Assembly: GCF_022809715.1 (NCBI RefSeq)
Contig: NZ_CP094459.1
Coordinates: 1,240,001 to 1,304,000 of the forward strand
Direction of reading: 5' to 3'
Length of the DNA: 64,000 nucleotides
Origin: Burkholderia pyrrocinia
GTDB lineage: Bacteria; Pseudomonadota; Gammaproteobacteria; Burkholderiales; Burkholderiaceae
Under the pieces are notes generated by a model. That model had not been told where the DNA came from and did not search any database. It saw nothing but the letters and a program-made list of their open reading frames with translations. The position numbers and the translations under genes are program-made. The stretch's first letter is position 1, and every line of letters starts with the position of its first letter. Shown here piece by piece: positions 6,241-55,838 of the stretch.

Positions 6241-9200
6241 TTACGCATCCGTGCGCGTGCCGGCACCGGGGCCGTGGCGTTCGAACCAGCCGCGCACGCG
6301 GCGCGCGAGCGAGTCGAAGCCGAGGTAGATCACGGGCGTCGTGAACAGCGTCAGCACTTGCGACACGATCAGGCCGCCGGCGATCGCGATCCCGAGCGGC
6401 TGGCGCAGCTCGGAGCCCGCGCCGGAGCCGACGATCAGCGGCACCGCGCCGAGCAGCGCGGCGAGCGTCGTCATCAGGATCGGCCGGAAGCGCAGCAGGC
6501 ACGCCTGGAAGATCGCCTCGCGCGCCGGCTTGCCTTCGACGCGCTCGGCCTCGAGCGCGAAGTCGATCATCATGATCGCGTTCTTCTTCACGATGCCGAT
6601 CAGCAGCACGATGCCGATGATCCCGATGATGTCGAGGTCGTGCCCGGTGATCATCAGCGCGAGCAGCGCGCCGACGCCGGCCGACGGCAGCGTCGACAGG
6701 ATCGTGATCGGGTGGATGTAGCTTTCGTACAGCACGCCGAGCACGATGTACATCGTGATGATCGCCGCGAGGATCAGGAAGATCTGGTTCGACAGCGATG
6801 CCTGGAATGCGAGTGCCGCGCCCTGGAAGCGCGTCTGGAACGACGCAGGCAGCGCGATGTCCTTCTCGGCGGCCTCGATCGCCTTGACGGCCTCGCCGAG
6901 CGACGCGCCGGGTGCGAGGTTGAACGAGATGGTCGTCGACGGGAACTGCGACAGGTGCGCGACCAGCAGCGGCGACGGCCGCTCGTGGAACGACGCGATC
7001 GACGACAGCGGCACCTGGCCGCCGCCGGCCGACGGCAGGTAGATGTCGTTCAGCGATTGCGCGTAGTGCTGCTCCTTCGGTTCGGACTCGAGAATCACGC
7101 GGTACTGGTTCGACTGCGTGAAGATGGTCGACACGATGCGCTGGCCGAACGCGTCGTACAGCGCGTTGTCGACGGTTGCCGGCGTGATGCCGAAGCGCGC
7201 GGCGCTCGCGCGGTCGATCTCGATGTAGACGGACTGGCCGTTGCTCTGCAGGTCGGTCGCGACGTCGGCGAGCGACGGTTCCTGCTGCAGCCGCGCGACG
7301 AGCTTCGGCACCCAGGTCGCGAACTCGTCCGAGTTCGGGCTCGTCAGCATGAACTGGTACTGCGTCGGGCTGACGGTCGAGTCGATCGTCAGATCCTGCA
7401 CCGACTGCATGAACAGCGAAATGCCCGTGATGTTCGCGACGCGGTGCTGCAGGTCGCGGATGATCTGCGCCGCCGTCTCGGAGCGCTCGTCGCGCGCCTT
7501 CAGGTTGATCAGCATCCGGCCGCTGTTCAGCGTGATGTTGCTGCCGTCGACGCCGATGAACGACGTGAGGCTGACGACGTTCGGATCCTTCAGGATCTCG
7601 GTCGCGAGCGCCTGCTGGCGTTCGGCCATCGCACCGTACGAGATCGACTGCGGCGCCTGCGTGATCGCCTGGATCACGCCGGTGTCCTGCGCGGGGAAGA
7701 AGCCCTTCGGTATGTAGACGTAAAGCAGGCCGGTCAGCACGAGCGTCAGCAGCGCGACGACGAGCGTCGAGCGCTGGCGGTTCAGCACCCATTCGAGCGC
7801 GACCGCGTAGCGCGCGATCACCCAGTCGATCGTCTGGTGCACGCGCGCCTCGAAGCGGTGGCTCTCCGGCGGCGGCGAATGGCGCAGCAGCTTCGCGCAC
7901 ATCATCGGCACGAGCGTGAGCGACACGATCGCCGAGATCACGATCGTCACCGCGAGCGTGATCGCGAATTCATGGAACAGGCGCCCGACCACGTCGCCCA
8001 TGAACAGCAGCGGGATCAGCACCGCGATCAGCGACACCGTCAGCGAGATGATCGTGAAGCCGATCTGCCGCGAGCCCTTCAGCGCGGCCTCGAGCCCCGA
8101 TTCGCCTTCCTCGACGTAGCGCGCGATGTTCTCGATCATCACGATCGCGTCGTCGACGACGAAGCCGGTCGCGATGGTGAGCGCCATCAGCGACAGGTTG
8201 TTCAGCGAGAAGCCGGCCAGGTACATCACCGCGAGCGTGCCGATCAGCGACAGCGGCACCGACAGGCTCGGGATGATCGTCGCGTAGACGTTCGCGAGGA
8301 ACAGGTACATCACCAGCACGACCAGCCCGACCGCGAGCAGCAGCTCGAACTGCACGTCGCGCACGGCCGCGCGGATCATCGTCGTGCGGTCGGTGACGAT
8401 CTGCACGTCGAGCGCGGCCGGCAGCGTTTCCTGCAGCTTCGGCAACTGCGCCTTGATCGCGTCCACCGTCTGGATCACGTTCGCGCCGGGCTGGCGCTGC
8501 ACGTTCAGGATGATCGCGGGCTCCGAATTCACCCACGCGCCGAGCTTGGTGTTCTCCGAGCCGGCGACGACCGTCGCGACGTCGGTGAGCATCACCGGGC
8601 GGCCGTTCTTGTACGCGACGACGGCGCTGTTGTACTGGTCGGCGCTCGTGAGCTGGTCGTTCGCGTTGATCGTGTAGGCGCGCGTCGGGCCGTCGAAGTT
8701 GCCCTTCGGCGTGTTCACGTTCAGGTTCGAGATCGTCGTGCGCAGGTCGTCGAGGTTCATCCCGTACTGCGCGAGCGCGGTCGGGTTCGCCTGGATCCGC
8801 ACGGCCGGGCGGTTGCCGCCCGACAGGCTGACGAGGCCGACGCCCGCGATCTGCGAGATCTTCATCGCGAGCCGCGTGTCGGCCAGATCCTGCACCTGCG
8901 TGAGCGGCAGCGTCTTCGACTTGACGGCGAGCGTGATCACCGGCGCGTCGGCCGGATTGACCTTCGCGTAGATCGGCGGGGCAGGGAGGTCGGACGGCAG
9001 CAGGTTGCCGGCCGCGTTGATCGCGGCCTGCACTTCCTGCTCGGCGATGTCGAGCGGCAGGTCGAGCGAGAACTGCAGCGTGATCACCGACGCGCCGGCC
9101 GAGCTTTGCGACGACATCTGGTTCAGCGACGGCATCTGCCCGAACTGCCGTTCGAGCGGCGCGGTGACCGACGAGGTCATCACCTCCGGGCTCGCGCCCG

Positions 9201-11973: not shown

Positions 11974-12096
11974 ATGAGCCGGTGCAAATACCGCTTGACT
12001 TGTCGGGCGGAAACGGAAAGAATGTCTCACGTTTTCGAAACATCGTTTCAGGAGTTTAACCGGCAACGGTGTTTCGCGCAGTCTCTCAGGTTCTAG
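11974..12096 (+). CDS. possible 40-residue small protein ending at a terminator
   Basis: An ATG at 11974 with GGAAAG five bases upstream opens a 40-codon frame (starts MSRCKYRLTCRAETERMSHV) whose TAG lies inside the first terminator hairpin. It overlaps by ATGA a 33-codon frame starting at 11876. The region is less GC-rich than its surroundings, so frames of this size can arise by chance. No domain is recognised. It is listed because the terminators imply a rightward transcript here that no other gene explains. Confidence 0.25.
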   Translation: MSRCKYRLTCRAETERMSHVFETSFQEFNRQRCFAQSLRF

Positions 12097-12126
12097 CACG
12101 GCCCTCGGAATGGCTAGAACTTTTTT
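12091..12126 (+). terminator. intrinsic terminator 1 (rightward)
   Basis: Stem TTCTAGC (12091-12097) / GCTAGAA (12113-12119), then C and six T. It forms the first of a tandem pair. Confidence 0.65.
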
Positions 12127-12156
12127 AGCGCCACGGTCTCCGTGGCGCTTTTTTTT
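12127..12156 (+). terminator. intrinsic terminator 2 (rightward, strong)
   Basis: A 10-bp perfect stem AGCGCCACGG / CCGTGGCGCT with a TCT loop is followed by an eight-T tract (12149-12156). On the opposite strand no T-tract follows, so it acts rightward only. Confidence 0.85.
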
Positions 12157-42887: not shown

Positions 42888-42910
42888 TCAGAAGGATGGC
42901 GGCGGAATCC

Positions 42911-43012
42911 GTACGCTTCCCTGCGCTGGCATTATCCAGATCAGGTTCAAAGGGTATTTCTCACCCGCAATGCCGGTTGTTTGACCGAACGCATTGCAGG
43001 ACCCCCGCGTTA
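42911..43012 (-). promoter_or_regulatory. TPP (THI element) riboswitch of thiC
   Basis: Read on the minus strand the element runs from ACGCGGGGGTCCTGC to CAGGGAAGCGT. The universally conserved core CTGAGAAATACCC-type (here GGTGAGAAATACCCTTTG) and ACCTGATCTGGATAATGCCA are intact, and ACGC/GCGT close P1. It sits about 135 nt upstream of the thiC ATG and should repress translation or elongation on binding TPP. Confidence 0.96.
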
Positions 43013-43286
43013 GCAAGGGCACACGATACACCGGCTTTGCGGCGGTTTCAACCGGGCGTACAGTGATTATCCCGGTGCAGTCGCGCTGTGGCGGGCTGCA
43101 TGGCAGGCGGGTGCGCCGCAACACGCTCGGTTGTCGTTCGGTCCGGCAGCTCGGTCGGCGGCGGATGAGCGATGCAGCATGGCGGGCTGTCCGGCCGGCA
43201 CAAAAAAATATTTTCAGATCGGCTGTCATTTCCCGTGACGTCGTCCGTCTATTCGGCTCCTCAAACCCATGTTTCGGAGAGATGTC

Positions 43287-54902: not shown

Positions 54903-55190
54903 GTGACTTCGCGATGACTTGCGCGACGCTTGTTTCGCAACAGGCGCGATACAAACGTCAGACGGTTTGGGGCCGTCGGACAAGGCGGACTCGATTGTAT
55001 CGGCGGATGTTGCGGCGCGGGACGAAATCGCGGGCGGTGTCGTATCGGCGCCGATTACACTGGATGAAGGCGTGCGATGCGATGGTGCGTCGAGTGGCGA
55101 TGGAGTGCGCACGTACGACGCGTCCCAACGCATGTCGCCCGAATAAGGGAACGCATGCGCAAGCAATGGTAGAATCGCGTCCGCCCTCTT
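54903..55190. other. tRNA promoter region, otherwise no gene
   Basis: The region holds TAGAAT (55170-55175), a probable -10 element that would start transcription a few bases before the tRNA. No convincing -35 was found and no gene is evident in the rest. Confidence 0.45.
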
Positions 55191-55525
55191 GCCGGGGTGA
55201 TGAAATTGGTAAACATAGCGGACTTAAACGATTGAGTGCCCGGCCGGAAACGGTCGGTGCAGAACCCTTCAAATTCGGCGAAACCCCTGATGCGCGCATC
55301 GAGGCAACGCCGAGCCAAGCCTCGCGGCTCCCGCGAGGAAGGTGTAGAGACTAGACGGGGGGCGCCTAAGGCGCACGGGCAGCGGTCACGCCCGCGCGCG
55401 ACGGCGAAGGCATAGTCCAGCGCACGAACGGCATCGCGCTCGCGACGCCGGCTTCGAAAGAAGCAGTGTGACGAAAATCCGCCGCCTTGATTGGCTTGCC
55501 GGTTCAAGTCCGGTCCCCGGCACCA
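55191..55525 (+). tRNA. tRNA-Leu(UAA), interrupted by a group I intron
   Basis: Exon 1 (55191-55225) begins GCCGGGGTGATGAAATTGG and ends at anticodon base U34 (GCGGACTT). Exon 2 (55474-55525) begins AAAATCCGCCGCC and ends with the T arm GCCGGTTCAAGTCCGGT, acceptor CCCCGGC, discriminator A and an encoded CCA. Joined they give 87 nt with a CUUAAAA anticodon loop (anticodon UAA), matched stems and a leucine-type long variable arm. Unspliced it would not be functional. A terminator follows at 55561-55593. Confidence 0.95.
55226..55473 (+). ncRNA. self-splicing group I intron (Azoarcus-like, subgroup IC3)
   Basis: A 248-nt intron between U34 and A35. The core matches the Azoarcus tRNA-Ile ribozyme: ATTCGGCGAAAC (55273-55284), AACGCCGAGCCAAGC (55306-55320), GGTGTAGAGACTAGACGG (55341-55358) and GAAGGCATAGTCCAG (55406-55420). 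P1 pairs exon ACUU with intron GAGU (55234-55237), including the required U-G wobble at the 5' splice site. The last base is G55473 (omega-G). No homing endonuclease gene is inside. Confidence 0.95.
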
Positions 55526-55560
55526 CGATCGCTTCCACGCGATTCCATGAAGGCCCGAAA

Positions 55561-55593
55561 ACCCGCGAGAGATCGAACGCTCGCGGGTTTTTT
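55561..55593 (+). terminator. terminator of tRNA-Leu
   Basis: Stem ACCCGCGAG / CTCGCGGGT with a 10-nt loop and six T (55588-55593). Confidence 0.85.
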
Positions 55594-55838
55594 GTTTCTG
55601 CGGCGTTGCATCGGATGCGATGACCATGCAACCGACACAAGCGCGCGCGACCGCCACCTGCGACAGGCATACCATCCCGCCATCCCGCGCCTATCATGGC
55701 AAATATGCTCACCGCGATCGAGCGGGTTGGTCATCGACGGCCGGCGCGGCATTGCATAGATTTCCAAGGTTGGCGCGCTTATCCGCGCGCCAGCCCGCGC
55801 GCAGGCCGGCAACCGGCCGCGCGCGCCTATCAGCGTGA

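Follow-up and report, generated by a model that had tools for sequence, protein, structure and literature searches.

The window, that is, the whole 64-kb stretch of Burkholderia pyrrocinia DNA analyzed here, contains, at positions 55191 to 55525, a tRNA-Leu(UAA) gene whose two exons are separated between U34 and A35 by a group I intron. The parts of the gene, the signals that probably flank it, and the helices modeled for the intron are listed below, where percentages give the aligned cells in which pairing is kept and both-side change means that both partners of a pair differ.

55167-55175, forward strand: probable promoter, an extended −10 element TGGTAGAAT followed by the GC-rich stretch CGCGTCCGCCCT (conservation).
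55191-55225, forward strand: 5′ exon of tRNA-Leu(UAA), 35 nt, last base U34 (ARAGORN with introns, sequence, splice-site script).
55222-55237, forward strand: P1, exon ACUU (55222-55225) with guide GAGU (55234-55237) and U·G at the splice site; 97.7% kept.
55226-55473, forward strand: group I intron, 248 nt, terminal G (ARAGORN with introns, RF00028, alignment).
55240-55257, forward strand: P2 with a GAAA tetraloop; both-side change in 7 of 7 pairs.
55265-55270 and 55357-55362, forward strand: 5′ and 3′ strands of P3; 100% paired, both-side change in 1 of 6 pairs, the other 5 invariant.
55274-55280 and 55308-55314, forward strand: 5′ and 3′ strands of P4; 97.9% paired, both-side change in 0 pairs.
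55285-55304, forward strand: P5 hairpin; 93.1% paired, both-side change in 3 of 7 pairs.
55320-55338, forward strand: P6 hairpin, variable in length; 77.5% paired, both-side change in 8 of 8 pairs.
55349-55353 (GACUA) and 55413-55417 (UAGUC), forward strand: P7, the guanosine-binding helix; 100% paired over 54 sequences.
55363-55406, forward strand: P8 hairpin; base of P8 99.5% paired.
55421-55470, forward strand: P9, P9a, and P9b, with a GAAA tetraloop at 55456-55459; 98.9%, 89.1%, and 96.3% paired, respectively.
55474-55525, forward strand: 3′ exon of tRNA-Leu(UAA), 52 nt, first base A35, with a long variable arm and encoded CCA (ARAGORN with introns, sequence).
55557-55592, forward strand: probable intrinsic terminator, a CCCGCGAG hairpin followed by a T run (folding energy).

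To call the gene, ARAGORN was run with an anticodon-loop intron allowed on a slice that started at window base 55001. It reported tRNA-Leu(taa) of 87 bases with a score of 105.5 at slice positions 191 to 525, which is exactly 55191 to 55525, and the split after U34 proposed in a preliminary description of this DNA thus holds to the base. As that description also had it, the exons (35 plus 52 nt) join into an 87-nt tRNA that encodes its own CCA, the four conserved core words are all present in the 248-nt insert, and a splice-site script located both the terminal G and a 4-bp P1 (ACUU/GAGU) with its U·G wobble. At 248 nt the intron has no room for a gene encoding a homing endonuclease, and no open reading frame (ORF) of at least 80 amino acids lies wholly within it, which places it outside the mobile, homing-endonuclease class.

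The same gene escapes routine annotation, as the preliminary description had warned. With default settings, ARAGORN found no tRNA in the entire window, and Rfam at its gathering score returned two unrelated families and no group I intron there; the Burkholderia small RNA ncS54 and a TPP riboswitch are found at that score at 12079-12156 and 42900-43016. When thresholds were relaxed, the group I model RF00028 matched 55263-55363 with an E value of 2.3e-6, so the proposed search did give a group I match, but at 31.8 bits the match stays under the gathering cutoff of 50. Across the three contigs of the genome (7.69 Mb), RF00028 matched nowhere else. Rfam at the gathering score likewise returned nothing for four relatives.

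Upstream of the gene, most of the loci compared, from Burkholderia and the wider family, retain ATGGTAGAATCGCGTCCGCCC but have diverged in the DNA that precedes it. A sigma-70 consensus scan found no site at 55167-55175, and the promoter call therefore rests on conservation. Downstream, the region from 55550 to 55600 folds with −22.1 kcal/mol (z −3.52); a terminator scan did not list 55557-55592, where the loop is longer than the scan allows. Both elements are thus probable assignments and would make the gene a transcription unit of its own.

A P1-to-P9 model was drawn by hand on the window intron, and its pairs were scored across 54 aligned, distinct genes from the family that carry the intron. 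Standard pairs occupied 92.2% of 3929 cells (75 model pairs, 54 relatives), compared with 36.1 to 44.6% when partners were slid by 1 to 3 columns, a comparison that favors the model since the structure was drawn on one of the 54 aligned sequences. Moreover, both-side changes were observed in 43 of the 75 pairs, as against 28.8 (standard deviation, 2.2) under shuffling; 500 shuffles were run, and all fell short of 43. In 4 of the 54 sequences, two adjacent P7 pairs have changed in concert, one from C-G to G-C and the other from U-A to C-G. Because P4 shows no double change and P3 shows one, these two helices rest on conservation. The pair at the 5′ splice site is U·G in 52 of the 54 sequences and C-G in 2, both of which are tRNA-Leu(CAA) genes.

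The intron has the hallmarks of group I: a P3-P8 core, a P7 helix, a P3/P7 pseudoknot topology, an RF00028 match (under the gathering score), an exon-terminal U paired to a guide G, and a terminal G of its own. It is a small anticodon-loop intron in which P5 is one short hairpin with no P5abc extension, and by this resemblance we name it subgroup IC3. Energy-based folding of the whole 335-nt precursor gave a minimum free energy only 2.15 standard deviations below that of shuffles (z −2.15) and preferred other pairings, so that folding in the cell may need help.

To determine whether another tRNA could read UUA, all 66 RF00005 tRNA matches in the complete genome were typed. The tRNA-Leu genes among them carry the anticodons CAA (one), CAG (three), GAG (two), and UAG (one), and no intact tRNA-Leu(UAA) is among the 66; the preliminary suggestion that the split gene may be the only UAA tRNA thus agrees with the genome-wide scan, and a pattern search extends the agreement to the genus. 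The split gene is present at full length (1-335) in 65 of 65 Burkholderia species examined, with 82 to 100% identity. One of the 65 has the anticodon arm in unbroken form, GGACTTAAAATCC, and ARAGORN recognized no tRNA in that stretch; as a positive control, the same pattern matched 18 of 18 intron-free relatives from the family. We conclude that the split gene is the sole UUA reader found in this genome and that it is kept throughout the Burkholderia species sampled.

Outside Burkholderia the intron is patchy. Some match to the split gene was found in 165 of 200 sampled family genomes, and 68 of the 200 gave a single full-length match at an E value of 5.6e-38 or better, as counted from the match listing. 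The patchiness is seen in one genus (g20): of 21 listed genomes, 12 contain the intron, whereas the other 9 give only two exon pieces at intron-free E values. All 23 sampled genomes of another genus (g1) have it. A phage collection gave no match.

Some loci are irregular. In one family genome (G029, C66:5811-6263) both ends of the split gene align around a divergent middle. In one species (L390) the gene, at 414-748, is accompanied about 7 kb away by a second, partial copy of its 3′ end (7560-7644; 84% over 85 nt, including the intron end), with metabolic-looking ORFs between the copies, and the duplicated end may mark an island that entered at the tRNA-Leu(UAA) gene. Short copies of the 3′ end also lie close to the gene in a few other Burkholderia species.

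Relatives of the intron were gathered by an exact-pattern scan of genome contigs, which returned at least 118 loci, a biased sample in that the pattern combined the window intron with Azoarcus and Anabaena cores. The host tRNA was typed for 106 loci, 4 were left without a settled type, and 8 had no recognizable tRNA. Among the 106 matches listed, the hosts are tRNA-Leu(UAA) (64), tRNA-Arg(CCU) (21), CAU tRNAs (12), tRNA-Leu(CAA), tRNA-Thr(GGU), tRNA-Thr(UGU), and tRNA-Lys(CUU) (2 each), and tRNA-Lys(UUU) (1). ARAGORN labeled some intron-bearing loci as Phe, Ser, Stop, Asn, or, in part, Leu(aag/caa); these labels were rejected by the U/G splice rule, according to which most of the mislabeled loci are tRNA-Leu(UAA) and the others tRNA-Lys. 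We know of no literature report of tRNA-Lys(UUU), tRNA-Lys(CUU), or tRNA-Thr(GGU) as intron hosts, of which there are five loci here. Additional group I introns, each in an individual Burkholderia species, interrupt tRNA-Thr(UGU), tRNA-Arg(CCU), and a CAU tRNA.

Insertion sites were assigned by a script that looked for the U34 site and thus shows that this site fits, not that no other would. Among typed loci, the U34 site is used in tRNA-Leu(UAA), tRNA-Thr(UGU), and tRNA-Lys(UUU), all of which have C32-U33-U34 fitting the guide GAG. The 12 cyanobacterial tRNA-Leu(UAA) loci among the matches listed use it as well, as the preliminary description had stated. It also serves tRNA-Leu(CAA) with C34 in the group called type B below, ten tRNA-Leu(CAA) loci of which have C-G in place of the usual U·G splice-site pair because of C34. 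One of nine loci in a later set (L328) did not pass the filter. Other sites are used by the two tRNA-Lys(CUU) genes, CAU tRNAs, tRNA-Arg(CCU), tRNA-Thr(GGU), and two other tRNA-Leu(CAA) cases.

The preliminary description had placed the core closest to the betaproteobacterial tRNA-Ile ribozyme, and comparison over 109 core columns did not uphold this. Among the matches listed, identity to the window intron was highest for alphaproteobacterial tRNA-Leu(UAA) introns (35 rows; median 81.7%, maximum 85.3%) and betaproteobacterial tRNA-Thr(UGU) introns (2 rows; 83.5%), versus 76.1% for the Azoarcus tRNA-Ile intron and a median of 73.4% for six betaproteobacterial CAU introns. The 12 cyanobacterial tRNA-Leu(UAA) introns had a median of 68.8%, the lowest of any host/class group among the matches listed. 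Thus, of the two comparisons first proposed, the shared cyanobacterial site stood and Azoarcus as nearest core did not.

A tree of 125 rows gave the same picture. Before it was built, 24 near-duplicate or long rows, any row over 420 nt, and then 11 long-branch rows were dropped, and its support values are to be read as bootstraps that had not settled. The Burkholderiaceae introns that include the window's (type A) formed one clade (99/96). Its sister (98/92) was type B, two tRNA-Leu(UAA) and two tRNA-Leu(CAA) introns of the same family with an altered P7; the tRNA-Thr(UGU) introns joined next (96/88), followed by a set with alphaproteobacterial tRNA-Leu(UAA) and tRNA-Arg(CCU) introns (96/94). 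CAU introns and Azoarcus made a clade of their own (100/99), and cyanobacterial introns made a third (100/100).

These data bear on two alternative origins. A jump of an Azoarcus-type betaproteobacterial tRNA-Ile(CAU) intron into tRNA-Leu(UAA) would account for the core words in common and for the 76.1% identity to the Azoarcus core, and an AU test did not reject type A plus CAU/Azoarcus as one clade (P = 0.191; log likelihood, 25.6 lower). We nevertheless consider such a jump unlikely, as the alphaproteobacterial tRNA-Leu(UAA) and tRNA-Thr(UGU) introns are nearer in core identity among the matches listed, the CAU/Azoarcus clade falls outside the assemblage of types A and B, tRNA-Thr(UGU), and the alphaproteobacterial set, and most betaproteobacterial CAU introns among the matches listed follow U36 rather than U34. 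Azoarcus kinship is therefore unsupported by these comparisons, though not disproved. Were the intron a direct descendant of the cyanobacterial one in tRNA-Leu(UAA), the identical site in 12 listed loci would be explained, and the AU test did not reject a joint clade here either (P = 0.307), but the lowest core identity and a separate, fully supported clade make such descent improbable.

One member of the alphaproteobacterial type lies on a plasmid (NZ_CP139688.1, 5990-6290), about 0.65 kb from aac(3)-IId. A reading of this locus as a partial or odd tRNA was rejected, as the typing script reads a tRNA-Leu(UAA) with a 215-nt intron. DNA at least 90% like it occurs in 1280 of 72,556 plasmid records and in 635 of 5426 Escherichia coli genomes, and no feature is annotated there in five E. 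coli rows examined. The tree places it among loci from Enterovirga, Mesorhizobium, and Bradyrhizobiaceae, a hint that its DNA may have originated near them.

In B. pyrrocinia, UUA is very rare. TTA makes up 25 of 110,525 codons (~0.02%) in 292 predicted genes from 464 kb sampled, spread over 24 genes, a lower estimate in that the gene caller keeps ORFs with GC3 above 0.75 and so biases the count downward. No TTA is found in the 36 predicted genes at 300 to 360 kb of contig 1, the tuf-rpoBC-ribosomal stretch, in which the ten tested proteins were EF-Tu, NusG, L1, RpoB, RpoC, S12, EF-G, L4, L2, and RpoA. Given this rarity, the suggestion in the preliminary description that splicing is essential is plausible at most.

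Vallotia cooleyia, an insect symbiont, offers the opposite case in codon use. Its split tRNA-Leu(UAA) gene lies on a 66-kb plasmid (C2:13017-13368), and its tRNA-Leu(CAA) gene carries a related intron (C1:456581-456898). Among its 43 tRNA matches are intact tRNA-Leu genes for CAG, GAG, and UAG and none for either UAA or CAA. In 117 ORFs of at least 150 amino acids, picked by length alone, TTA and TTG account for 805 and 635 of 43,865 codons, and UUA occurs in all 117. Within the reach of these searches, then, Vallotia would depend on split genes to decode UUA as well as UUG, an argument that genes of this kind are functional.

BldA of Streptomyces is a rare-codon tRNA, and by analogy splicing might be a regulated step that gates expression of those few genes that contain UUA. 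The rarity and uneven placement of UUA and the single decoder found would suit such a gate; however, there is no sign of a control element, and Vallotia retains the intron just as well although every ORF counted there contains UUA, so that we hold a gate to be unlikely. That the gene is a silent relic, with UUA read otherwise or not needed, is very improbable: the scarcity of UUA and its absence from the ribosomal stretch might suggest as much, but core, promoter, and exons are conserved in 65 of 65 species, UUA persists in 24 of 292 predicted genes, and Vallotia keeps the split gene under heavy UUA use.

We are highly confident that the locus is a single-gene unit with a group I intron predicted to be self-splicing, that it supplies the sole UUA reader found, and that it is inherited vertically in Burkholderia. 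Transcription of the unit would yield a 335-nt core precursor of tRNA-Leu(UAA), which cannot decode before splicing because the intron sits inside the anticodon. The intron would fold into a small group I ribozyme of the kind found in tRNA genes, with the exon end ACUU (A31 plus C32-U33-U34) paired to the guide GAGU in P1. Splicing would take the two steps long established for group I introns: in the first, a free guanosine held in P7 would attack after U34; in the second, the freed U34 would attack after the terminal G, joining U34 to A35 and releasing an 87-nt tRNA with its own CCA. The product would be the only tRNA found in the genome able to read UUA, and the intron, with no endonuclease, would pass down vertically within the genus.

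Self-splicing bacterial tRNA introns are well known from cyanobacterial tRNA-Leu(UAA), Azoarcus tRNA-Ile, and alphaproteobacterial tRNA-Arg(CCU), according to three sources (PMC3984707, PMC4033280, PMC7717549), and the window intron is an addition to this group with a revealing range of host tRNAs. The alphaproteobacterial tRNA-Leu(UAA) introns (Caulobacter, Phenylobacterium, Methylocystis, and others) share its U34 site and guide word, but those examined have shorter P8 and P9 regions. The cyanobacterial and plastid tRNA-Leu(UAA) intron (subgroup IC3), known since 1990 according to references in PMC3984707, has the same host and site, but the cyanobacterial introns stand apart in the tree and in core identity, as described above. 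The Azoarcus tRNA-Ile(CAU) intron, also of subgroup IC3, shares the core words, two GAAA tetraloops, and small size but occupies another host at another site (after U36 in related CAU loci). Small, endonuclease-free, and scanner evading like the window intron, the tRNA-Arg(CCU) intron of Agrobacterium and Bartonella (BbgpI) differs in following U36 of another tRNA; BbgpI is reported to splice both in vivo and in vitro (PMC7717549). For Acidovorax and Burkholderia, the tRNAscan-SE 2.0 paper (PMC8450103) describes tRNA-Ile2 genes with group I introns; Burkholderia is thus already known to harbor such elements, though in another tRNA, and the passage on them does not name tRNA-Leu. The tRNA-Ile2(CAU) gene of B. 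pyrrocinia is intact. A search of the open-access literature listed no publication that describes an intron in the tRNA-Leu(UAA) gene of Burkholderia, and we do not claim that the intron is unpublished. A tRNA-Leu(UAA) intron has reportedly been described in a gammaproteobacterium.

How the family came to occupy several tRNAs can be addressed tentatively. As the guide GAG fits C32-U33-U34, the targets open to it are tRNAs with U34, and the set of hosts that have this word suggests, without proving, spread by reverse splicing into matching loops. It is possible, though we lean against it, that the U34-site introns are one family that moves between tRNA genes in this way, guided by a three-base word, with tRNA-Leu(UAA), tRNA-Thr(UGU), tRNA-Lys(UUU), and the like as targets; tRNA-Leu(CAA), whose C34 pairs with the same G, would then be an outlier that arose by anticodon change or by a rare jump.

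Because the gene escapes both the tRNA scan at standard settings and the curated model for group I introns used here, Burkholderia genomes will seem to have no UUA-reading tRNA unless scans allow introns. The close relatives across tRNA-Leu, tRNA-Thr, tRNA-Lys, and tRNA-Arg genes provide a testable rule for where new intron homes should be found, and if spread by reverse splicing is real, whole codon boxes may come to hang on ribozymes, as with the UUA and UUG readers found in Vallotia. If splicing proceeds as proposed, one leucine codon would be ribozyme dependent in every Burkholderia species examined and in a UUA-rich symbiont.
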